This document shows positions 7,601 to 33,869 of a stretch of 64,000 bases of DNA, one piece after another. Under the pieces are notes generated by a model, which worked only from the letters and a program-made list of their open reading frames with translations, searched no databases and was not told the DNA's origin. The DNA is from Paragyromitra xinjiangensis (lineage: Eukaryota > Ascomycota > Pezizomycetes > Pezizales > Discinaceae). The stretch's first letter is position 1, and each line of letters begins with the position of its first letter. Both the position numbers and the translations under genes were made by a program. Location of the stretch: positions 1,811,001 through 1,875,000 of the forward strand of contig JBCAMK010000004.1 of the NCBI GenBank assembly GCA_038503065.1, read 5' to 3'.

Positions 7601-8307
7601 TGGCCTTGTAGAAGGAGTTGAACTGGGTCGGGTCAACTTGATATGCTTTTTGAATGCATAGGAAGCCAATTCCATCTGGTCCAGGTGCTTTCTTTGGTGC
7701 TGAGGTCATGATTGCTTTCCGAATCTCATCGTTGGTGAGGTCTTTCCATGGGATCTTGTGTTTTCCTGCTGGAACAGGTTCATCAAGCTCCACTGAGGGA
7801 GGGGGAGGGAATAGGGTAGCTCGGAAGAGATTGGCTTTCTCTTCAAAGGTTTTGGATTCTTGGAGGGTGGTGGGATTGTGTAGGGTGGGGGTGCGTTCAC
7901 ATCTGCGAGGCTTGGTGTACCTCATTGCTGTGAAGACATCTTTGCCGTGAGCTTCTTCTAGGAATGTATTCCAGTGTTCACTCTTTGCTGTCCGGATTCG
8001 TCTGAAGTAGGATGTTCGCAGGTTTTTGAATCTTCGCCACATGGCTGGAGTCTGATCTGTTCTCCAGTCCCTGAGGGCTGTTTTCATGTGTCTGCGTCCT
8101 TCTCTGATGTCTTCATTCCACCAAGGTTTGGCGAAGGGCGATGGTTTTCGTTTCGGTACATGGATGTTGGCAGCTGCTATGATTGAATCTCGTAGGTGTT
8201 GAGCTGCTTCGTCAAGGTTTGAATGGGTTGGGTGGGAGTGTAGGAACTCCCAGGTGTCTTTTGTGGTGATGGAGGAGAGGGTGAAAGTTTGTTGGAAGCC
8301 GTCCCAG
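4696..8307 (-). mobile_element. LINE-A copy A1, 5'-truncated, inserted in LINE-D ORF2
   Basis: Minus-strand copy of LINE-A with the complete 3' UTR and an AATA-repeat tail at 4696-4704. It breaks off at 8307 against the LTR of the plus-strand Gypsy, inside ORF2 after the endonuclease domain. It is nearly identical to the intact copy at 24381-30967. Confidence 0.9.
5108..8307 (-). pseudogene. LINE-A ORF2 fragment (RT, RNase H) with two frameshifts
   Basis: This corresponds to ORF2 from just before the RT domain to the stop. RT motifs AKAYRPVSLLNCLGK, MDVKGAYDF, GIPQGSPTSP and YVDD are intact, as are the RNase H motifs YTDGS, DAELYG, DNQAA and GNELADKLA and the C-terminal CKCGFDNQTPQHLLLEC. 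Compared with the intact copy, one G is missing from the run at about 6295-6298 and one from the run at about 5836-5838, splitting the frame into three. The apparent start at 8402 lies in the Gypsy LTR and is fortuitous. Confidence 0.85.
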
Positions 8308-9040
8308 TGTAACGGACCCACAAGGCTGTTACATGCGAAAGGTAGAATAGACCCGGGCAGACGGAGAGGTACAAGGACCAGCATGAGTGGAGTAGCTACC
8401 ACATGCTAGGGAACACCAGTACCCCGCTGACCTGGTGGTTAGGAACATCCGGAGGTGCTAAGGCTGACGGGCCTGTAGCAGATCACCGATGACATCAAAC
8501 ACTTAGAGATGTGGTTGAGTTCCTAATCCACCTGTGCATGCCCCACCAGCTATGGCTGATAGGCGGCGCAACTGGGAGAACTATTCTAGCGGACACCTGA
8601 CGCAACTATGGATTGATCAGCGCCATGCAAGTAGTCCTGTAGGACTAGGCTGGCGGATCACAGAGTCCTGACTGGTAGAGCAGTGCATGAGGAGCGGTTG
8701 CACATGAGGTGCAGAACTCCAGCGGAATGTGAGAGAACACTTCCGAAGAGACCCGCCCATGATCACTGACAGGATTCAGGGTTAACCGGATCCCCCAGCT
8801 GAGTAGAACTGAGTAGAGGCGGCGAGCATGCAGTACTACAAATACTGGCGAGCCCCGCCACCAGTTGCTCTTCTCCATCTTCGACCAGAGACCTAATGAC
8901 GAGAATTACCGAGTTCCGCCCTTAAGATTATTGAGTATACTGCACGAAAATACTTTAAGATCTCAGCCTGACTTTAGTATAAGCAACGGCCGTTTTCCTA
9001 TCTAGCCTTAGCAGTTGTCTAGAGGACCACCCCCGTTACA
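8308..9040 (+). repeat. 5' LTR of plus-strand Gypsy (733 bp)
   Basis: Begins TGTAACGGACCC and ends CACCCCCGTTACA, with short inverted TGTAACGG/CCGTTACA termini. Nearly identical to 15281-16013. The following bases (GTATAATCTTAAGG) do not start with TGG, so a standard tRNA 3'-end primer site is not evident. Self-priming, as in some chromoviruses, is possible but not shown. Confidence 0.95.
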
Positions 9041-9080
9041 GTATAATCTTAAGGACTCAGTCACCTTGAGATCACCCATC

Positions 9081-11274
9081 ATGAGATCCTCCCGCAGATC
9101 CGAAACCCCGGCAATCAATGCCCCGGTGCTTCCCCTTCAGATTACATGGGAGAAGAAGGAACTAGCAGTAGGAGAGACAGACATGACCCAACTAGTCCAC
9201 CGCCCGAAATCCACTATCCAAAGACATATCCCAGGCATCTCCACCCCATGGACAGACACATCAAAAGTCACCATAGCCGATTTCTTTGACGCATTTCAAG
9301 ACCATCTCATGTCCCAGATCAACCTATCGGTTGGGGATACCACACAGACCATGAGAATGCTACAGGAACGGCAAGAAGTGGAGAATACCTTGTTGCGGGA
9401 GGCTGCCAAGTATTTGGACCGGAAGGTCCTCAATCTCCAGCAGCATCTACAACAGTTGCTGACGGACAAAGACGACCTCGCAACTGATCCCATGGATATA
9501 GACCCCCCCGAAGCAGTTGGAATTCCTGACTACATCGGAGCACTACAGCAGGCCATTACAGAAGGCCGCCTACACATCACTGCACCCCCGAAACCAGCGG
9601 CAGGAAGAGAAAGATCCAGTAGTGTCTTTCTCTCAGATACCTTCCCAATTACCCTACCTACCACACCTACCAATAAAGCAGACCCCCCATCGTTACCCCC
9701 CACAGTTCAAAAACCAGCAGTTAGTTTTGCGCCCTCAGGCTCATCCTCTACTCCAATACCTCCGCAGACACCTAGAGGTCCCTTTTCTTATGGACCTTGG
9801 TCCCTTGCAGGCGGCAGTGGTTATACACCACCACCCCTCGATAGTGGTAGCTCATGGCTACCAAGAGGAACATACCCAAGGCCCTCGGAAGGAAGGAAGG
9901 AAGAAGGAGAAAGTAGTGGAGGAAGAACAGGAAGAGAAACCAGTGAACAACAAGGGCAGGGAAACGAGAACCAGGGAGGAGGAGCAGGAGGAGGTGATGG
10001 AAATATAGGAGTAGGAGGAGGAGACCCCGGTGATAGTAGTAGCAGCAGCAGTAGTGAAGGAGGGGCAGAGAGGGATCCGAAGGAGTGGAAGAAGTATTTC
10101 CGCAAGAAGCAGCGGAAAGCAGAGAAGAAGATGTTGGAGATGATGGCTACAGTTTTCAGCAGTGGCACCGGTCCCACCTCTACTGGGAGCCTTAGGGGAC
10201 GAGAACCCAAGGCACCTCAACCCAGCAAGTTCAAAGGAGAAGCTACCGATGTGGACCGATTCCTCCGGCAATGTGAAAATGTCTTCACTATTGAAGCATC
10301 CAGTTTTCAGCAGGAATCAATCAAGATCCGCTACACTGGTAACCTTCTCGAAGGACATGCAGCAGTCAACTGGTATGAGGCCTACCATAACCTCATAGAC
10401 CAAGGTGCTGCCGATAGAGCTGCAGGACGACCTGTTCAGCTTGACCCTCACTGGAACCATTGGGTTACCTTTTCCAATTCCTTTCGATCATCCTTTGGTG
10501 ATAGAGTCACCAGAGAAGAGGCGGTAGCTAAGTGGGATAAACTCTCCCAGACCGCTGGAATTGATGCTTTCCTGGACCAGATAGTCCAACTCATGTGGAA
10601 AACCGGTTATGCTGGCGAGGTTGTGGATGATAAAATATCCCAAGGCCTCACCGCTGAGCTGGCTCTGGATTGGGCTAAGGTTGCAGTCAAACCTCAGTCC
10701 CTCCATGAGAGGATACAGATGATCCGCCACATGGGACATGTCCTGGAAAGACATAGGAAGGTCAGAGCCCCGGAGTCCAGGGCAACAGGAGAAGGAGGTG
10801 AGAAGAAGAAGAGATCCAGAGGTAGAGGCAAAGGTCAGAGTACCGCCGCCTCCCCTGAGAACAAGTCCACTCCCGGGGTTAGTAACCCACCGCAGGAGAA
10901 GAAAGATAAAGCTGTGGAGCTAAAAGGTATGGCAGAGTCCAACCTCCCTTGATAAGACACCACATGCTAACCACCCCTTGATAGGAATACCCGAGGGAAT
11001 CCTTTCCGATAGAAAGAAGGCAGATAAATGCCTGAAATGCGGAAAGGGTGGACATGCATGGTTTAAGTGTTGGACTACTGATCCGGTAACTGTTAGAGTT
11101 GCGGCAGTAAGAAAGAGGAAGAGAGGAACTGAGCTAGAGGCCAGTGATCCTCCGGAATCTAAGAAGGGAAAAGTTGCCACTGTATCTAGATCAGGACAGA
11201 GTTCCGGCAGTCTCAAACAGGAGACTGGTGTATTTACGGCGGTAGATGATGACAGTGGACCTGAAATCATCTAG
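9081..11274 (+). CDS. gag: Gypsy Gag (capsid plus zinc knuckle), two exons
   Basis: Structural protein that forms the virus-like particle. The first ATG is at 9081; the open frame upstream begins with a TTG in the LTR. Exon 1 (9081-10926) encodes the N-terminal region, a long Gly/Ser/Glu-rich linker and a capsid-type domain (KAPQPSKFKGEATDVDRFLR onwards). Exon 2 (10985-11274) carries the nucleocapsid knuckle CLKCGKGGHAWFKC (CX2CX4HX4C) and a basic tail. The exons are in different frames. Removing 10927-10984 (GTATGG...GCTAAC...GATAG) joins them in frame to give 711 aa. Without splicing, Gag ends about nine codons after the donor and lacks the knuckle. The minus-strand copy has the same arrangement. 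Confidence 0.8.
10927..10984 (+). other. Predicted spliceosomal intron in Gypsy gag (58 nt)
   Basis: Donor AAAG/GTATGG, branch-like TGCTAAC, acceptor TTGATAG/GA. The length (58 nt) is not a multiple of three, and its removal is needed to join the capsid and zinc-knuckle frames. The minus-strand Gypsy has a 61-nt equivalent at the same codon with GTATGT, CTGAC and CACAG. A programmed frameshift is the alternative. Confidence 0.72.
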
Positions 11275-11325
11275 CCTAGTCATTCTTTAGAAATATATTT
11301 CGTTGGGCAGGACCCTATTGCTCCT

Positions 11326-11378
11326 ACAGGTACTGAGGAGGGATAATATCCCGAAATTTGCTGGTCAAATATGCCAGT
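11326..11378 (+). ncRNA. Candidate type I hammerhead ribozyme between gag and pol
   Basis: The core CTGAGGA (CUGANGA consensus) is at 11333-11339. Stem II is GGGAT/ATCCC with loop AAT (11340-11352), followed by GAA plus A (11353-11356). Stem III is ATTTG/CAAAT with loop CTGGT (11356-11370). The cleavage-site nucleotide is A11371, preceded by the paired U, giving an AUA triplet that satisfies NUH. Stem I is formed by 11326-11332 with 11372-11378: four pairs next to the core including one U-G, then an A-A mismatch and two more pairs. Cleavage would fall between 11371 and 11372, upstream of the pol ATG. The minus-strand copy has the same core with compensatory changes in the stems. Confidence 0.72.
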
Positions 11379-11463
11379 TCTCCCAAGCTATACCCAGATA
11401 CAGATATGGCCATCACTAGCGATCATTGATACCCTGCGATTGAAAAAGAAAACCTCAACCACT

Positions 11464-14400
11464 ATGTCTACAGGCTACACTCCATTTCAAGGCGGCATAA
11501 GTAAGACCAGACCCGAGAGGTCAGTGGCAAAGCGCCAGAGAAGTCCCAGTCATGAAGACCACCCACCAACGAAGAGAAGAATGGAAGAACCCCCGCCAGA
11601 ACCCGTCCATGGGCAGAGACCCATTTTGAAGGCTGAGTTGAACTGGAAGGTGCGGAACCACATCAGCAGGTGCCATGGAAGGTTCCTGTTTGACACTGGA
11701 TGCACCGGGCCTATCCTCAGCGAAGAGTTTGTGAAGAAGGAGAAGATACCTGTGGAGCGCCAGGATTCTCCTATTCAGATGTTTGATGCCCAAGGTGACC
11801 TTATGATGGGAGCTGGCGAGTATTTTACTGCCACCCTCGACATGGTCATGGGCAAACATGAGGAGTTGATCCGGTGGGAGGTGGGACCTTTAGAAGAAGG
11901 CATCTCCGGATATCTTCCCATCTCATGGGCTCAGAAGCACAACCCAGACTTTGATTGGCATACTGGCCGCGTCAGGTGGAGGAGTGACTATTGCAAGAAG
12001 CATTGCATTCCCGCCGATGTCACGATTGAAGTATGTGAAGACTGGGAGATGTTGGCCGAAGATAGGGCCAATGTACATCAGATTGGATCAGCAGTGTGGC
12101 ATGATGAGCAGGGCGGAGATGTGGGATTGAGGTTACCGCCGGAGTACCGGGAATGGGCAGATGTGTTCAGCAATGAGAAGAGCTCAAAGCTACCAGAGCA
12201 TAGTGCATTTGACCACCATATCAGATTGCAGCCCGGAACGAAACCACCTTTTGGGCCTCTCTATCCATGCTCTGAGAGTGAGCTGAAGGCCCTCCGGGAG
12301 TTTCTGAACAAAGCACTACCCTCCGGAAAGATCTCCAGGTCCAATTCCCCCGCCGCTCCTATCCTGTTTGTGCCCAAGCCTAATGGTACCCTCCGCATTT
12401 GTGTGGATTACCGGGGCTTGAACAAGATCACAATCAAGGACAAGTACCCACTTCCACTGATGTCAGAACTGAGAGACAGGTTGACCACCGCCAGGGTCTT
12501 TACCAAGATAGACTTGAAGGATGGGTTCAACCTGCTAAGGATCGCCAAAGGGGACGAGTGGAAGACAGCTTTCCGGACCAGATATGGCTTGTATGAGTAC
12601 AATGTCATGCCATTTGGTCTGTGCAATGCACCCTCCTCATTCCAGGCTATGATCAATGAGGTTCTACATGACCTCCTAGATCTCGGAGTTATAGTATACT
12701 TAGATGATATACTTATATACTCCGAGAACATGGAAGGACACCAGTTCCTCGTCAAGAAGGTGTTAGGAAGGTTGAGAGAAGCCAACCTCCATGCCCACAT
12801 TGACAAGTCCTTCTTTCATTTGAAAGAAGTGGAATATTTGGGGTACAACATCTCCGAGCATGGCATCTCTATGTCCAAAGAGAAAGTCAATGCTGTCAGG
12901 GAGTGGCCGGTACCTAGAACTGTGAAGGATGTGCAGGCCTTCTTAGGCTTCGCCAACTTCTACAGGAGATTCATAGCAGGTTTCAGTCGGGTTTGCAAGC
13001 CCTTGACGGATCTGCTGATGAAAGACAAGAAGTGGTTCTGGACTGCCGCTTGTGACAGAGCTTTCGAGGAACTCAAGCAGCTGTTCACAAGTGAGCCGGT
13101 CCTAGTTCATTTTCACCCCAGTAGGCGCACAGTTGTAGAAACTGATGCAAGTGACTTTGCGAAAGGTGCAGTGTTATCTCAGTATGGCGAGGATGGGAAG
13201 CTACACCCTGTGGCCTTCTACTCCAAGAAGTTTTCCCCACCGAGATAAACTATGACATCCATGACAAGGAAATGGGCGCCATAGTGGCTGCTTTCCGAGA
13301 ATGGGAGCACCTTTTGAAGTCAGTAGAGGGAGAAGTCACTGTGTTCACCGACCATAAGAACCTAGAGTACTTTAACAGTACCAAGGTCTTAACCCGCCGG
13401 CAGGCCAGATGGTCTGAAGACCTGGCGGGTTATAACTTTAAGGTGGTCTACAGATCCGGTGACAAGAATGGGAAGCCAGATGTCCTATCCAGACGGTGGG
13501 ATCACCGCCTAGGAGAGGGAGGTGAACCTGCAGTTGTAGAACCGCAGTTGTTTTTCCGTCCTGGGCAATTGGTGTTGAACCCTGCTAGGCTAGCGGCCAT
13601 CAGAGTTCACCAACTCCAGTCTACATTCTTGCAGAGGCTTGAAGCTGCGGCAGCTCAAGATATCCAGTGGCAAGGCATCTGCCAGGCACTACAGGAGAAG
13701 AAAGAAGGATTAGACCCGTCACTGTCCCTCAAGGATGGTTTAGTGTTCTATAAGAACCAATGGTATGTCCCGGAAGGCAGAGACCTCCGCCAGGAAATCT
13801 TCACCGAGTGCCATGACAGCAAGATGGCCGGTCACTTTGGGCAGTTCAAGACAGTTGAGAAAATCAAGTCCAACTTCTACTGGCCCAACATGGATAAGGA
13901 CATTGAAGAGTATGTCCGAAGCTGTGATAGCTGCCAGAGGAACAAAACCGCCCGCCACAAGAAGTACGGCGAGTTATTACCTCTGGAGGTGCCCTACCGA
14001 CCCTGGACCTCAATCTCTATGGACTTCATAGTGGGATTGCCTGAATCCGATGGGAATACCAAGATCTGGGTCATAGTTGACCGGTTTTCAAAGATGGCTC
14101 ACTTCATTCCGCTTCCTAGCGAGAATAAGACTGAGGACATGGCAAAACTCTTCCTGAAAGAAATCTGGAAGCTTCATGGTCTCCCTGATGACATAGTCTC
14201 GGATAGGGATAGCAAATTCATCTCCCATTTTTGGCAGTCACTGATGGATCTCCTCAATGTGAAGTTGAACTTGTCTACCGCATTTCATCCACAAACCGAT
14301 GGTCAAACCGAGAGGGTTAACCAGGTTCTGGAGCAGTATATGCGGAGCTATTGTTCCTTCCAACAGGATGATTGGTCAGATCTCCTCCCCCTCGCTGAGT

Positions 14401-15107
14401 ATGCCTATAACTCTGCTATCTCCGAGTCCACCAAGGTATCACCCTTTTGTGCAAACTATGGGTTTGAACCTCGGACCAATTGGCCAAATGCAAAGCCAAG
14501 AGCAGATTGGGATAACCCGGCGAGTCAAGTTAAGGTATCTCAGTGGGAAGCCATTTGGCATGCCATGCAGGAGAACCTGGGGAAGGCTAGGGTCCGGATG
14601 GCCCGCTGGTATGATAAGCATCACCAGAAGGGACCGGAACTCAAGCCAGGTGATGAGGTTATGCTTGATCGGCGCAATGTACAGACAAAGCGGCCGATGA
14701 ACAAGCTGGATCAGAAGAAGTTTGGGCCCTTTAAGGTCAAGAAGGCAGTGGGGAAGCGAGCCTTTGAGCTTGTCTTGCCTCCGGGTATGAAGATACACCT
14801 GGTATTCCACATCAGCCTCTTGGAACCTTATAGAGCGCCAGCAGACTCTCTGAGAAGAGAACCCCCACCGGAGATGGAGATGGTAGATGAGGAAGAGAAC
14901 TGGGTGATGAGGGAGATAGCGGACTCCAGGGTGAACCGCAAAAAGAAGAGAGTGGAATATCTCGTGTTATGGGAGGGTTATGATCAGGAAGAGGCCACAT
15001 GGGAACCCTGGGAACATCTTAGGAATAGTGCCGAAGAGGCCCTTTCAGATTTCCACAAGAGGTACCCTAAGAAGCCCCGAGACAGGAGGATTGCGGGGCC
15101 AGAGTAG
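11464..15107 (+). pseudogene. pol: Gypsy Pol (protease, RT, RNase H, integrase, chromodomain), one frameshift
   Basis: Polyprotein for reverse transcription and integration. The ATG at 11464 (MSTGYTP) is preferred because the minus-strand copy has the same start; an in-frame ATG at 11371 is not conserved. Order: aspartic protease with FDTG, RT with VDYRGLN, KIDLKDGFN, MPFGLCNAP and VYLDDILIY, RNase H with ETDASDF. A one-base loss at about 13237-13241 then shifts the frame, and the second open part runs 13272-15107. This part has the H2C2 zinc site (CDSCQRNK), the integrase core (MDFIVGLP, VSDRDSKF, HPQTDGQTERVN) and a C-terminal chromodomain (YLVLWEGYDQEEATWEPW). The chromodomain places it among chromoviruses. 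The frameshift would block Pol from this copy unless it is a sequencing error. Confidence 0.9.
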
Positions 15108-15280: not shown

Positions 15281-16013
15281 TGTAACGGACCCACAAGGCT
15301 GTTACATGTGAAAGGTAGAATAGACCCGGGCAGACGGAGAGGTACAAGGACCAGCATGAGTGGAGTAGCTACCACATGCTAGGGAACACCAGTACCCCGC
15401 TGACCTGGTGGTTAGGAACATCCGGAGGTGCTAAGGCTGACGGGCCTGTAGCAGATCACCGATGACATCAAACACTTAGAGATGTGGTTGAGTTCCTAAT
15501 CCACCTGTGCATGCCCCACCAGCTATGGCTGATAGGCGGCGCAACTGGGAGAACTATTCTAGCGGACACCTGACGCAACTATGGATTGATCAGCGCCATG
15601 CAAGTAGTCCTGTAGGACTAGGCTGGCGGATCACAGAGTCCTGACTGGTAGAGCAGTGCATGAGGAGCGGTTGCACATGAGGTGCAGAACTCCAGCGGAA
15701 TGTGAGAGAACACTTCCGAAGAGACCCGCCCATGATCACTGACAGGATTCAGGGTTAACCGGATCCCCCAGCTGAGTAGAACTGAGTAGAGGCGGCGAGC
15801 ATGCAGTACTACAAATACTGGCGAGCCCCGCCACCAGTTGCTCTTCTCCATCTTCGACCAGAGACCTAGTGACGAGAATTACCGAGTTCCGCCCTTAAGA
15901 TTATTGAGTATACTGCACGAAAATACTTTAAGATCTCAGCCTGACTTTAGTATAAGCAACGGCCGTTTTCCTATCTAGCCTTAGCAGTTGTCTAGAGGAC
16001 CACCCCCGTTACA
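15281..16013 (+). repeat. 3' LTR of plus-strand Gypsy (733 bp)
   Basis: Same length as the 5' LTR and almost identical to it; visible differences include C/T at the position matching 8329 and A/G near 15869. It ends CCCCCGTTACA, followed directly by LINE-A ORF2 sequence. Confidence 0.95.
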
Positions 16014-17292
16014 CCTCTGCCCTGACTCCTGGCCTTCAACCCAGGAAAACGACAACCCAGATAGCTCCAACAACACTCCATGGCACCAAACCACCACCTC
16101 CCCCAAATACGAAACAAGACTACATAGGATACTGGCATCTACCAACAAATGGGTCCAGCCACAATCAGAGATTGAATGCGTAGACAATCTGGCATGTCCA
16201 CCATGGCACCAAAACACCATAGACATCTACATTGACCCTGCAGACAAAGACGCAGCAGCAGAAAACCATCGGAACCACACAGCTGGAGACAGTACTAGGA
16301 CTGATCGCCTAGTATTCTACACTGATGGCTCCCTCCTGGAAGGCAAAACAGGAGCTGGAGTTGCTGGTTTCCGCAGAGGTCATGCTGTGGTCAACAAATC
16401 CTACCACCTTGGCAAAGAAAATGAAGTCTTCGACGCAGAACTTTATGGTATTGCAAAAGCCACTAAGCATGCAATCCTACAAGTACAGCGATCACCTCAC
16501 CTGACAAACAATGTCTACATCTACTGTGACAACCAAGCAGCAGTACAACGAATGACAACACCCCTCCCTATGCCAGGCCAACACCTGGTCATTGAAGCCC
16601 GCAACAACTTGCTTCAACTCGAAGACAGTGGCATCAAAACCCCTGTTTATTGGGTACCAGGACATGTCAACGTTGCCGGCAACGAGCTAGCTGATAAGCT
16701 CGCCAAGATAGGAGCCCAAGGAACCAGGATAGAATCAGATGTCCTCACCTCCATCACATACCTCAAGAGAAACATCAAGGAACACTCCCTGATGACATGG
16801 AAAGCCAAATGGAAGCAGGCAAAGAAAGGCCGCAGCTACTACGGACAACCAGCACTGAAACCAAGTGCCCCGCTGAGGGGAAACATCCCCAGAAGAACAG
16901 CCTCCACCATCACTCAAATGAGAACCGGACATGGATACACCAAATCCTACCTTGCCAGAATCCCCACCAACAACATTGAAGACACCAAATGCAAATGTGG
17001 CTTCGATAACCAAACACCTCAACACCTACTGCTAGAGTGTGGCCAGGAACCACTTCCTACCCATCGCAAAGCACTCAAAGCAGCCCTTAAACCAATGCCA
17101 CTCACATGGAGAACTGCGATGCATACCAATGCTGGCCTGGCTGCCACCATTGAAACATTTCTCACACCAACCCAAATCGCTACCAGAAATTGGACCCTGG
17201 AACGACAAGAAGACAATAGGTATTCCCACCAAGGAATTTACCTCTACAACGACGAAGAGGAAGAGAGCGAAGGAGAAAGAGAGAACGGCTAG
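16014..17292 (+). pseudogene. LINE-A ORF2 C-terminal fragment (RNase H and Cys-His tail)
   Basis: About 425 codons of ORF2 covering the RNase H domain (YTDGS, DAELYG, DNQAA, GNELADKLA) and the CKCGFDNQTPQHLLLEC motif. The apparent start codon (15988) belongs to the Gypsy LTR and is fortuitous. The frame is open to the normal stop. It has several amino-acid differences from the other copies (for example GHAVV for GHSVV), so it is a separate insertion and not an assembly duplicate of A1. Confidence 0.85.
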
Positions 17293-22541: not shown

Positions 22542-22653
22542 GAGTTGGAATTCGTGGAGGATTAGTTAGTTTTGTTTTGTTTTTCTTTATGTTCTGTTGG
22601 GTTTTCTTCTACTGTACGCCATATCCGTCCCGGACGCATGCGAGTATGAACAA

Positions 22654-22689
<36 letters not shown>

Positions 22690-22702
22690 CAGCCCATCTG
22701 GC

Positions 22703-24380
22703 CTGCCGGCGGTTCAAAACCTTAGTACTGTTGAAGTACTCTAGGTTCTTATGATCGGTGAAGACCACAACCTCTCCCTCAACGGACTTAAGAAGGTGCT
22801 CCCATTCCCGGAACGCAGCTACTATGGCACCCATTTCCTTATCATGGATGTCATAGTTGATCTCAGCTGGCGAGTGCTTCTTACTATAGAAAGCAACAGG
22901 ATGCAACTTGCCATCCTCGCCATACTGGGACATCACAGCTCCCTTCGCAAAGTCAGAAGCATCAGTCTCTACAACTGTGCGTCTCTGTGGGTGGAAGTGG
23001 ACCAAGATAGGCTCGCTGGTGAACAGCTGCTTGAGTTCCTCGAAAGCCCTGTCACAGGCAGCGGTCCAGTGCCACTTCCCTTCTTTCCTCAGCAGGTCAG
23101 TCAATGGTTTGCACACCTTGCTAAACCCGGCGATGAACCTGCGGTAGAAGTTGGCTAAGCCTAAAAAGGCTTGCACATCCTTCACGTTCCTAGGGACTGG
23201 CCAGTCCTTCACGGCGTTGACCTTCTCTTTAGACATAGAGATGCCACGCTCGGAGATCTGGTATCCCAAGTACTCAACCTCCTTCAAGTGGAAGAAGGTC
23301 TTATCTATATGTGCATGCAGACTTGCCTCTCGAAGCCTCTGCAGCACCTTCTGAATGAGGCGTTGATGCTCCCCAATTGTTTCTGTATAGATAAGTATAT
23401 CATCTAAGTATACTATCACGCCCAGATCCAATAGGTCATGCAACACCTCATTGATCATAGCCTGGAACGACGAAGGGGCATTACAGAGGCCGAAGGGCAT
23501 GACATTGTACTCATAAAAGCCATACCGGGTCCTGAACACCGTCTTCCACTCGTCCCCTTTGGCTATCCTCAACAGGTTGAACCCATCCTTCAGGTCAATC
23601 TTGGTAAAGACCTTAGCGGTTCTCACCCTGTCCCTCAACTCAGACATCAGTGGTAGCGGGTATTTGTCCTTTACTGTGATCCTGTTAAGGCCCCGGTAGT
23701 CAACGCAGATGCGGAGAGTACCATTAGGCTTAGGAACGAACAGGATAGGCGCAGCGGCGGGGGAATTGGATCTGGATATCTTTCCAGATGGTAGGGCCTT
23801 GTTCAGGAACTCTCGGAGGGCCTTAAGCTCGGATTCAGAGCAAGCATACAAGGGCCCGAACGGTGGCTTTGTTCCTGGTTGTAGGTTGATGTGGTGATCG
23901 AAAGCACCATGCTCCGGCAGCTTTGAGCTCTTCTCATTGCTGAAGACATCCGCCCATTCCCGGTACTCCGCTGGTAGCCTCAGGCTCACATCTCCTCCGC
24001 TATCATCATGCCAAACCGCAGCTCCAATCTGATGCACATTGGTCCGGTCTTCTGCCATCATCTCCCAGTCTTCACACACCTCTATGTGGACGTCAGTGGG
24101 GATGCAGTTCTTGTGGCAGTAATCGGAACGCCAATGGATGCGGCCAGTATGCCAATCGATGTCTGGGTTGTGCTTTTGTGCCCATGAGATAGGCAGATAC
24201 CCGGAGATGCCTCCCTCTAGAGGTCCAACCTCCCAACGGATCAGTTCCTCATGCTTGCCCATGACCATGTCTAGGGGGGCAGTAAAATACTCACCAGCTC
24301 CCATCATCAGGTCACCCTGGGCATCAAGCATCTGAATGGGAACCTCACACTTCTCTGGTGGTATCCCTTCTTTTCTCACA
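22703..24380 (-). pseudogene. pol: Gypsy Pol middle part: protease end, RT, RNase H
   Basis: Open frame of about 560 codons between two LINE insertions. RT motifs VDYRGLN, KIDLKDGFN, MPFGLCNAP and VYLDDILIY are present, as is the RNase H ETDASDF and the following SPAEINYDIHDKEMGA. This stretch is intact where the plus-strand copy has its frameshift. It is the middle of a single pol interrupted by LINE-A (right) and half-LINE-B (left); the reading frame is collinear across both insertion sites once the duplications are discounted. Confidence 0.88.
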
Positions 24381-24935
24381 CAACGATCTCCTGACAGCGA
24401 CAACTATTCTATCAGGACGAATTTTCGAAAATAACTCCACAACCAACAGAGATATCATCAAACCGACTTCATATTCGGAATCAGCACCCCCTTTTACCCC
24501 CTTCTACACCTCCTGGGAAATCCATCTCTTCTATTGCAGAAGTTGTTGTGATTTTCCCCTTCATTTCCCCTCTTTGGGGCTCACCCCACCAAAAAACCCG
24601 CCGAGCCCCCCCTCAAAATCGTCGCCAGTCAACCAGTTCTTGTCCGATTGACTTGAAACTTGCACATCTACGCCGCCTACATACTACGGCCCAGGATTTT
24701 TAGTTTCAGCCAAATCGGCCCACAGGCGCCCGAGTAGTACTCATTTTATCGCCAGAAATCGCCAGAAATCTCGGAATATTACAATTCTGACTGACAGCAC
24801 ATCACCTGCTACCTTCTGGAACATTCCATCGGTGGAACCCAATCAGCCTCCGGTCTTCAACGTCCAATCAACTTTTGTCTCGGCAATTTATTTTTAGTAT
24901 CCGTTACACGAAAATTTCCGAAAATTTCCGGAACC

Positions 24936-30620: not shown

Positions 30621-30982
30621 GAGATGGAACATGACCGTGTGGAGGATTTCTGATTATAAAAACTGTTTGAGTATTTCCCTATGATTTTACCCTGTCGACT
30701 GATAATCCGTTCGTTTCTACTGTTCGGTAGAACTTTGAGATAAAAATTGTTATTTCCTCTTTTGTTATTTTCCTTTTGTTATTTTGTTTTGATTTATGTT
30801 TTGTTTTCGCAAAAGGATATCTGATGTGGATATCTACTAATTAGTTGGTTCATGTTCGCGGAGGATTTTCTTTTGTTAGTTATTGTACGGTCATGGGGTT
30901 TCCTTTCATTGTATGCCATATCCGTTACGGATTTATGCAATATGAGCAATAAATAAATAAATAAATACCTTCTTTTCTCACA

Positions 30983-31248
30983 AAGTCCTCGCTGAGGATA
31001 GGTCCGGTGCAGCCAGTATCGAACAGGAACTTACCATGGCACCTGTTGATATGCTTCCGCACTTTCCAGTTCAACTCAGCCTTCAGTATAGGCCTCTGAC
31101 CATGTACTGGCTGTGCTGGCGGTTCTTCTAGTCTTCTCTTCGATGGTGGGTTTCCACTAGGGCTATGGCTTCGCTGACGCTTTGCCTTTCGTCTCTCGGA
31201 CAAGGTCTTACGCATGCCGTCATTGTATGGGGTGTAGCCTGTGGACAT
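30983..31248 (-). pseudogene. pol: Gypsy Pol N-terminus with protease active site
   Basis: Starts at the ATG at 31248 (MSTGYTPYNDG). It includes a basic segment and the aspartic protease motif FLFDTGCTGPILSE, and is cut by LINE-A after FVRKEG. The frame resumes at 24380. Confidence 0.85.
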
Positions 31249-31348
31249 GACAGTTGTACTGTGATACTAACGCAACGATGTCAATGATCGTTGAGCAGGT
31301 TTCTGTGCAGGTATCGACAATGGTTTGAGCTGGGTGTTAGCTAGGAGA

Positions 31349-31400
31349 AGTTACATATCGATCCAGCGATTTCGGCCTATCAGGCCTCCTCAGTACAACT
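31349..31400 (-). ncRNA. Candidate type I hammerhead ribozyme between gag and pol (minus Gypsy)
   Basis: Read on the minus strand: stem I 5' arm AGTTGTA (31400-31394), core CTGAGGA (31393-31387), stem II GGCCT/AGGCC with loop GAT (31386-31374), GAA (31373-31371), stem III ATCG/CGAT with loop CTGGAT (31370-31357), A17 at 31356, stem I 3' arm TGTAACT (31355-31349). Stem I has seven pairs, two of them G-U type. The triplet before the cut is AUA. Cleavage would fall between 31356 and 31355, about 107 nt upstream of the pol ATG. Core and topology equal those in the plus-strand Gypsy while the stem sequences differ. Confidence 0.75.
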
Positions 31401-31441
31401 GATATAAGAACGAAATGATATTAAGACTAATGAACGGCTAT

Positions 31442-33656
31442 CTAGTAGATCTCAGGATCACTATCCTCATCTACTACAAACAATCTCTCAGGCTCTGCCT
31501 TGAGAGGAACAGGACTATGGACTGCCGCTACTGCGGCTGCTTTTCCCTTCTTAGACTCCGGTGGAACAGCAGTGGCTTCTAGCTCTTCTGCTCTCTTCCT
31601 CTTCCTCGTGGCTGCTACTCTAGCTACCACAGGAACCTGAGTCCAACACTTTCCCCATGAATGCCCCTTTTTTCCACACTTTAAACAGACTTCGGCTTTA
31701 CGCCTCTCTGCCAGGATACTCTCTGGTATTCCTGTGAATGCGGATGGGTCAGTCAGGTACTTGTCTCAAAGGAAGGTAGTACTCAGACATACCTTTTAGC
31801 TCCACAGCTTTATCCTTCTTCGCTGGCGGAGTCTTATTCTCACCAGCGGCCTTTCTATCAGAGGTAGCAGCGGTACTCTGACCTTTCTGCTCACCCCTCT
31901 TCTTTCCACTACTCTCGCCACCACCCTTCTTTTCTTCCTTCCGTTCCGGGGGCCTTGTCTTCTTGTATCTCTCAAGAACATGACCCATGTGCCAGACTAG
32001 TTGAATCCTCTCATGGAGAGAGGCGGGTTTAACAGCTACCTTAGCCCAATCGAGGGCTAGTTCTGCATTGAGGCCTTGGGATATTTTATCATCCACTACC
32101 TCGCCGCTATAGCCTGTCTTCCACATCAACTGCACAATCTGGTCCAAGAAGGCATCGATACCGGCGGTCTGTGAGAGCTTATCCCACTTAGCTACCGCTT
32201 CTTCCCTGGTGACTCTATCCCCAAACGAAGACTGGAACGAAAGCGTGAAGGTGGCCCAAGAGAACCAGTGAGCATCCAAGATTACAGGACGCCCTGCGGC
32301 CCTATCAGCTGCTCCTTGGTCAATGAGGTTATAGTAGGCCTCATACCAGTTGAGCACTGCGTTGCCTTCCAGGAGATTACCAGTGTAACGGATCTTCATG
32401 ACATCCTGTTGAAAGGAGGATGCCTCTATCGAGAAGACATTCTCACACTGGCGTAGGAAACGGTTGACATCATGGGCTTCTCCCTTGAACTTAGCAGGTT
32501 GTGGTGCCTTGGGTTCCCAGGTCCTGCTAACAGCGTTGGACATGCCACCGCCTGCTCCCATCATCGTGGCCATCATCTCCATCATCCTCTTCTCCTGCTT
32601 CCTCATCTTGCGATGGTAGTACCTCTTCCAGGCTTTAGGATCTGCACCCTCAGGTTCAGAGTCACTATCACTGGAATCCGGGTCCCTACCACCACCTCCT
32701 CCTACCCTTCTGCCTCCTCCTCCACCTCCTCCTTGTCCACCATTATCTCCTCTGTTGCCCACTGCTTCTCCTTCCCCTCTATTCTCCTCCCTTGGTGTTG
32801 CTGGCCGGTCGAAGGGGGGTGGAGGTGAATTAGCAGGTGGTGTTCTCTGTGGCGTCCATCCTGATGTGCCCTGAGGGGTTACAGGAGGCAAACCACCACC
32901 ACCAGAGCGCTGAGATCCTCCGAGTCCCCAGGTAGTTGAACCATAGCCGCGTGAAGGGGGTAGGGGTGTTCTGGATCCAACAGAAAGGCCGAGGGGCATC
33001 CAGGACTCGTCTATAGGAGCCTGGGATCGTGCTCTTCGTCGTGGTTTTGGTGCTGGAGGTGGGGGTGCGAGTGGTAGGGGAAAGGACTCTAAAGGGAACG
33101 TAGTGTTAGACCTTGGCCTTCCTATCCTTTCTTCCGGAGCCTTGATGTGTAGCTGTCCACTCCGGATAGCTTCCTGCACAATGGTTAGGTAGTCCGGTGG
33201 AGCAGCCTGCTCCGGTAGATCTAGGTCCATAGGTTCCGTTCCGCTTAGTTCGTCCCTTGACAGCAGCAGGTGTTGCACTCGCTGCTGTAGGTGTTGTGCC
33301 TGATCATTCAGGTAGTTCATGGCATCCTTCATGAGGGTTTGCTCAGCTGACTGCCGTTCCTCTAACATCCGTAAGGCATGTCCTGCCTGGGCAACCGTGC
33401 TGTTGATGTAGCTCTTCATGTGCTCTTGATAGTGCTCAAAGAACTCCGCAATGGTGACCTTGGACCAATCTGTCCAGTTGGTCTGGACACCTGGGATGTA
33501 CTTCTCGAGGGTTGTCTTTGGGGCTTTGACTAGCTGTGCATCTTCTCCGTCTCCAACCGCCAGCGTCTTCTTTTCCAATTGAATCTGAAGGGGAGGAGCG
33601 GGTGCTCCTAACACTGGGGTGTTGCGGCTGGAGGATCGTCCAGAACGTGATGCCAT
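31442..33656 (-). CDS. gag: Gypsy Gag (capsid plus zinc knuckle), two exons, minus copy
   Basis: The ATG at 33654-33656 (MASRSGRSSSR) is chosen. The longer open frame begins with a GTG at 33749, but the downstream ATG aligns with the Gag start of the plus-strand copy. Exon 1 is 33656-31793: an N-terminal domain (ITIAEFF-type block near residue 60), a Gly/Pro/Arg-rich linker, and the capsid domain with KAPQPAKFKGEAHDVNRFLR. Exon 2 is 31731-31442 with the knuckle CLKCGKKGHSWGKC and a basic tail ending DEDSDPEIY. Splicing out 31792-31732 joins the two frames to give 717 aa. Both exons are uninterrupted although the rest of the element is broken by insertions. Confidence 0.8.
31732..31792 (-). 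other. Predicted spliceosomal intron in Gypsy gag (61 nt)
   Basis: Minus strand: donor AAAG/GTATGT, branch-like CTGAC, acceptor CATTCACAG/GA. Same codon position and phase as the 58-nt intron in the plus-strand copy, although the intron sequence has diverged. Confidence 0.72.
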
Positions 33657-33869
33657 TGCTGTAGCTTGGGGTATAGGAGTGCTCGCTGTGGTAGTTCGAT
33701 TGTACTGGTGCTGGAACAGTGATCTCGCAGATACTGTTCGTCTAGCCACTCAGGGTAGTTCTCCTGCCAATGGATGTGGTCAGGAATCGAAGGTTTCCTC
33801 TTCAAACTGCTGAAGAGGATCGAAAGCCAACTCATGTACCGGTGGGCTACAGGAAGTGATTCTGAAGGT

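Follow-up and report, generated by a model that had tools for sequence, protein, structure and literature searches.

The plant LTR retrozymes resemble the fungal element described here in having a hammerhead in an LTR retroelement that is tied to Ty3/Gypsy machinery (Cervera, Urbina and de la Pena 2016, PMC4918200). They differ in being described as non-coding and non-autonomous; they have circular RNAs, and each of their LTRs contains a hammerhead (type III; PMC7761336). By contrast, the fungal element is coding and has one type I hammerhead, which is placed between gag and pol. Type I hammerheads in autonomous coding retroelements are also reported from Penelope-like elements (PLEs) and Terminons, where they are described as minimal, usually without helix III or tertiary loop contacts, and as sitting in pseudo-LTRs (PMC7761336, PMC6155905, PMC11167929). 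In the fungal element, helix III is complete and the motif separates two genes instead. The HDV-like ribozymes of R2 and other non-LTR elements are reportedly the subject of work by Ruminski et al. These ribozymes likewise act in the processing of retroelement RNA and may promote translation initiation, but they belong to another ribozyme class and are located at the 5' end of the element rather than between genes (PMC7761336).

Hammerheads are also reported from fungi. Those of Yarrowia lipolytica are associated with interspersed repeats (Perreault et al. 2011, PMC3088659), and their placement within these repeats may resemble the gag-pol position, while Pleurotus ostreatus is reported to have five 55-nt Hammerhead_3 matches (PMC5040776). 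Among the matches listed in a search of the open PMC literature, which leaves out most subscription journals and all bioRxiv preprints, no title or start of an abstract places a hammerhead in the gag-pol interval of a coding LTR retrotransposon.

The window (i.e. the whole 64,000-nt stretch of Paragyromitra xinjiangensis DNA that was analysed) was searched on both strands with a type I hammerhead descriptor, which matches at two places, 11333 (+) and 31393 (-). Both are gag-pol gaps of Gypsy elements, and these belong to two related families, here called family 1 (represented by the plus-strand copy, the window element) and family 2. The features of the two elements are given below; the parts of the family-1 hammerhead were read from sequence and alignment, and its cleavage site from the sequence.

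8308..9040, +, 5' LTR of 733 bp, TG...CA, with two mismatches against the 3' LTR
9081..10926, +, gag exon 1 with a presumed start codon, within the open reading frame 9015-10952
10927..10984, +, predicted gag intron of 58 nt, GTATGG...CTAAC...TAG (motif search and comparison with a sister family)
10985..11274, +, Gag-nucleocapsid (Gag-NC) exon with the CCHC knuckle CLKCGKGGHAWFKC (translation; knuckle by eye) and a stop at 11272-11274
11326..11332, +, hammerhead stem I, 5' strand
11333..11339, +, hammerhead core CUGAGGA
11340..11352, +, stem-loop II, GGGAU(AAU)AUCCC, 5 bp with the triloop AAU
11353..11356, +, hammerhead core GAAA, its last A being position 15.1
11356..11370, +, stem-loop III, A-UUUG(CUGGU)CAAA-U, 5 bp with the loop CUGGU
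11371..11372, +, predicted cleavage site after A11371 (H17; AUA triplet), which splits the AUG at 11371-11373
11372..11378, +, hammerhead stem I, 3' strand
11379..11463, +, spacer from the ribozyme to the pol AUG (sequence reading)
11464..13248, +, first part of pol, with RT and the start of RNase H (open reading frame and Pfam)
13272..15107, +, second part of pol, with the end of RNase H, integrase and chromodomain (open reading frame and Pfam)
15281..16013, +, 3' LTR (LTR comparison)
31249..31441, -, family-2 gap of 193 nt from the Gag-NC stop to the pol ATG, whose A is at 31248 (sequence reading)
31349..31400, -, homologous family-2 hammerhead, predicted to be cut between 31356 and 31355 (descriptor and covariance model)
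31732-31792, -, predicted spliceosomal intron of 61 nt in family-2 gag

The motif has the architecture of a type I hammerhead. Specifically, three helices surround the core and are entered through stem I, and the core reads CUGANGA...GAAA with an A15.1-U16.1 pair and a base other than G at H17. Position 7 of the hammerhead core may be any base, and AUA triplets occur naturally. The core, the 5-bp stem II, the GAAA, the A-U-closed stem III and the AUA triplet all lie where the original prediction had placed them. The flanking arms that it assigned to stem I do pair, with one mismatch in the window copy (A11328 against A11376) that is private to this copy and has no counterpart in the other 22 copies of family 1. 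Stem I consists of 7 plain pairs and loop II is a triloop, and by eye we recognised no known contact between loop I and loop II. For natural hammerheads, such loop contacts are described as needed for high activity at low Mg2+ (PMC6155905). They mark the fast natural forms and are not universal.

The element that carries the motif is a Ty3/Gypsy chromovirus, the class proposed from the sequence at the outset. It has LTRs, the order RT-RNase H-integrase and a C-terminal chromodomain, with Pfam matches to RVT_1, RNase H, integrase and chromodomain (PF00078, PF17917/17919, PF17921, PF00665, PF00385), while the same scan of the element finds no Pfam match for Gag. The first pol frame ends at 13248 in the window copy, and several other copies have longer open pol frames. 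With RVT_1, integrase, a chromodomain and direct LTRs, and with no GIY-YIG-type endonuclease among its Pfam matches, the window element is not a PLE. Nor is it an LTR retrozyme of the plant type, as its sole hammerhead is outside the LTRs and it encodes RT, integrase and chromodomain. Plant LTR and animal retrozymes are reported to use hammerheads for cutting multimeric or circular transcripts, followed by ligation to RNA circles (PMC4918200, PMC7761336). A similar use here is very improbable, since the only hammerhead found in the window element is internal, with none in the LTRs, and a linear transcript would give no unit circle.

The sequences flanking the window element (8300-8307 and 16014-16021) show no target-site duplication (CCCAG vs CCTCT). 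The LINE-like copies that they match are oppositely oriented on the left and right, suggesting recombination. In the family-2 element in the window (22562-24403 and 30971-33749, -), pol is apparently split by a LINE-like insertion. A host helicase encoded in the window has its nearest named relatives in Morchella importuna (76%) and Rhizina undulata (74%), from which a host in the Pezizales is probable.

As predicted, the motif lies on the sense strand between the Gag-NC stop and the pol ATG, in a gap of 189 nt (11275-11463, followed by the pol ATG at 11464) where about 190 had been claimed. Counts of stops and of first AUGs after the cut refer to 38 of 43 copies, as no pol start is recognised in L013, L034 and L043-L045. 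In 38 of 38, a stop that lies within the gap, downstream of the Gag-NC stop, closes the pol frame, and because of these stops pol is out of reach of simple frameshifting or readthrough. Four other Gypsy families (one copy each; 64, 58, 55, and 42% alike in RT) have gag and pol frames that overlap, stop to stop, the overlap being just 5 nt in L082. In these single copies, neither the descriptor nor the covariance model finds a hammerhead.

The predicted cut was also said to fall inside the AUG at 11371, separating A from UG, and this extends to every copy: in 43 of 43, the cut has the A of an AUG on its 5' side and the UG on its 3' side. The split AUG is 90-92 and 107-113 nt away from the pol AUG, and it is not a conserved pol start because this distance is not kept in frame. 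The first AUG after the predicted cut is that of pol in 33 of 38 copies (17/22 in family 1 and 16/16 in family 2). In the five remaining family-1 copies, including the window copy, the AUG of pol is preceded by another, 34 nt downstream of the cut.

The Gag of both families seems, from its sequence, to be interrupted by a short spliceosomal intron before the nucleocapsid exon. We infer a splice donor after 10926 in the window element from GTATGG and homology. The intron measures 57-58 nt in all 8 family-1 loci that are long enough to show it and 61-62 nt in the family-2 loci where the motif search succeeded, while the homologous Gag of a sister family, compared by eye, runs through without an intron. 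Since genomic copies retain the gag intron, they must, like those of retroviruses, have been templated by unspliced RNA. Splicing could have a second role, in which an alternative event joins the gag donor to ACAG/GC in the conserved ATGTC(T/C)ACAGGC at the pol start and so produces a Gag-Pol fusion; the ribozyme, located in the resulting long intron, would then reduce the spliced share. In favour of this route, the short gag intron has the look of a genuine one in both families, the sequence puts the gag donor in one codon phase with either possible acceptor, and a CATTGA block is conserved between the ribozyme and pol. Conservation of the acceptor, however, proves nothing because it overlaps pol coding sequence, and no clear branch point is seen by eye at the usual distance. 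We consider this second role of splicing quite unlikely. Beyond the ribozyme (11379-11463 and the family-2 gap), blocks conserved between the families are UCUCC directly after stem I, ACCCAG, and CGATCATTGA.

The descriptor matches are not due to chance. When the whole window is shuffled by dinucleotides, 5 of 60 shuffles give any match, the best with 14 pairs compared with the 16 observed. Shuffles of the two gaps alone give 2 matches in 60,000 and 0 in 60,000, none with 16 pairs. A loose hammerhead pattern has 103 matches in the P. xinjiangensis genome, compared with 69 for a reversed control, and among those listed the well-paired ones, as judged by eye, come only from the two families. A loose pattern is found in at least 120 stretches of IMG/VR. 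A specific pattern of both families has 0 matches in GTDB genomes and 0 in IMG/VR (prokaryotic and viral collections). A 220-residue piece of pol has no relative in IMG/VR.

The Rfam hammerhead covariance scan suggested with the original prediction gives no match for the window motif. Searches of the whole genome with RF00163 and RF00008 have no match at the two motif places and none above the cut-off (73 and 67 candidates scored), and Hammerhead_3 gives only 12.4 bits (E 2.2) on the family-2 motif. Neither family reaches the Rfam gathering cut-off, which is a detection criterion rather than a defining feature. The absence of any covariance-model hit in an alignment of many family members had been named in advance as refuting the motif: the Rfam models indeed yield none, but a model built from five family-1 rows recovers all 20 family-2 places at 37.2-47.9 bits (E about 1e-10). 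The Rfam misses count against the motif, yet are outweighed by this one-family model. In L064 and L079-L082, the same model finds nothing up to E 10.

Searches of the 48.2-Mb genome give at least 25 matches to the family-1 gap region and at least 21 to that of family 2, and the ribozyme region is kept in 23 and 20 copies, respectively (including L004, which has a changed core); these copies are not independent, because they represent one genome and two related families. Outside the copy counts are L024 (no 5' half), L025 (an old relict whose core is changed and whose cut site reads A/UC) and L046 (no ribozyme region). Over a 220-residue stretch of RT, the two families are 90-92% alike where the match is complete, and the initial 600 bases of pol are 82% alike. 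When a single representative per family is compared, the core is identical at 13 of 13 positions, while the stems have 19 of 32 letters identical and 12 differing. All 16 comparable pairs are retained nonetheless, which is equalled by 2 of 200,000 random substitution sets.

Pair counts were taken from a model-fitted alignment, which favours structure, because MAFFT misplaced the family-2 gap of one base into stem III. In its 11 distinct rows and 17 pairs, 97.3% of cells pair (at most 41.5% with slid partners), and five pairs are changed on both sides. In a column shuffle, a control that is weakened by the relatedness of the sequences, 0 of 500 replicates reach the observed pairing, number of double-changed cells or covariation score; two of the five measures are not unusual, as the count of double-changed pairs is as high in 218 of 500 and that of pair types in 354 of 500.

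Ten ribozyme columns vary over the 43 copies, each in a single copy. Variants common to at least 2 of 41 copies (L044 and L045 are incomplete and were left out) occur in 0 of 105 ribozyme columns, compared with 29 of 281 in the rest of the gap (P = 7e-5) and 33 of 714 in coding sequence (P = 0.01), and when only shared and single-copy variants are compared the values are P = 0.005 and P = 0.049, respectively; since the copies are related by descent, these P values are a guide only. Changes in the ribozyme thus seem not to be passed on by transposition.

Covariation between the two families and the absence of shared variants within them both back the hammerhead reading that was first made from the window alone. 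A fold that arose by chance, or that has decayed and lost its function, would fit the lack of Rfam scores, the stem I mismatch of the window copy, the changed core of L004 and the different fold predicted once flanks are included (see below), but not the shuffles, the covariation or the missing shared variants, and it is scarcely credible. The motif is almost certainly a real and selected hammerhead, as judged from these sequence comparisons.

One locus, L054 (G000:C9 near 248408), has family-1 homology that starts 2 nt before the predicted cut, and was considered as a retrocopy of a cut 3' RNA. This was rejected: the 3' LTR of the locus is complete, and the sequence flanking it upstream is a repeat that has 211 genomic matches, a count that includes internal tandem repeats. 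It is probably a junction with another multi-copy repeat.

Predicted folding energies, which are a rough guide because the nearest-neighbour model is blind to the catalytic core and to tertiary gain, depend on the segment and copy used. In typical copies of both families, the 52-53-nt segment taken without flanks is predicted to be most stable as the hammerhead (-12.1 and -12.9 kcal/mol). A competing hairpin, in which GCUGGU of stem-loop III pairs with GCCAGU of stem I (11360-11378 in the window), reaches -11.8 kcal/mol in typical family-1 copies compared with -12.1 for the hammerhead. In the window copy, the private stem I mismatch lets this hairpin win (-11.8 vs -7.0 kcal/mol), and with the hairpin as its predicted minimum this copy would be a poor choice for an assay on its own. 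Family 2 cannot form the hairpin, as judged by eye, though the CUGG of loop III is conserved. When 5-11 flanking bases are added on each side, another fold is favoured in both families, by 2.9 kcal/mol in family 1 (-15.5 vs -12.6) and by 2.1 kcal/mol in family 2 (-15.6 vs -13.5). These predicted folds go against easy folding of the hammerhead, and self-cleavage, which they make somewhat less likely, is still probable.

The near-equal stability of hairpin and hammerhead in family 1 is what a switch would need, and the ribozyme could act as a brake on the element. In this case, it would cut part of the full-length RNA and so limit Pol or genome copies, the 3' product would be degraded, and selection would act on restraint. 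The structural evidence fits such a brake equally, and slow partial cutting is plausible for so compact a motif. A brake leaves unexplained, however, how Pol is supplied when stops bar simple frameshifting, and why the pol AUG is the first after the cut in 33 of 38 copies; the hairpin itself, by eye, cannot form in family 2. We consider restraint unlikely as the main role.

Release of a pol RNA has slightly less than an even chance of being the main use of the motif. Under this model, the element's sense RNA would be cut after the A of the split AUG, leaving a 5' product that would carry gag and a 3' product that would be a pol RNA with a 5'-OH end, some 90-113 nt of leader and a first AUG that would normally be the pol start. 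Some transcripts would stay uncut and serve as template for reverse transcription; partial cutting is proposed because the motif is compact and lacks a recognised loop I-loop II contact. Pol would then be supplied by cutting instead of by overlapping frames as in the sister families. We infer the cutting, its partial extent and the translation of the 3' product from the arrangement of the locus, and some points stand against the model: an RNA with a 5'-OH and no cap is unlike an ordinary mRNA, and a genome that is cut is lost as a template. Public RNA-seq is also reported to lack ends at the cut site of the PLE PAc, which has a conserved hammerhead (PMC11167929). For the reading as a whole, i.e. 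a genuine type I hammerhead that is fixed in the gag-pol gap of two sister chromovirus families and cuts their sense RNA to yield a separate pol RNA, we see the chances as evenly balanced. More tentatively, the ribozyme may partition gag and pol in an LTR lineage that replaced ribosomal frameshifting by RNA self-cleavage; this would yield a pol message of its own, beginning close to its first AUG, the uncut RNA being the genome.

The hammerhead's role in PLEs has been called a mystery (PMC7761336), and what genomic hammerheads do for their hosts has been called unknown (PMC4918200). If the motif cuts, it would represent a new way for a retroelement to set its Gag:Pol balance, and a case of visible selection on a hammerhead inside a coding, autonomous LTR element. 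The function of genomic hammerheads for their hosts could then be tested directly. Similar motifs may hide in other fungal genomes, because standard Rfam models can overlook them. As judged from the sequences compared here, the conserved hammerhead between the coding regions of two related elements suggests self-cutting of the element's RNA as a control on the production of its enzymes.
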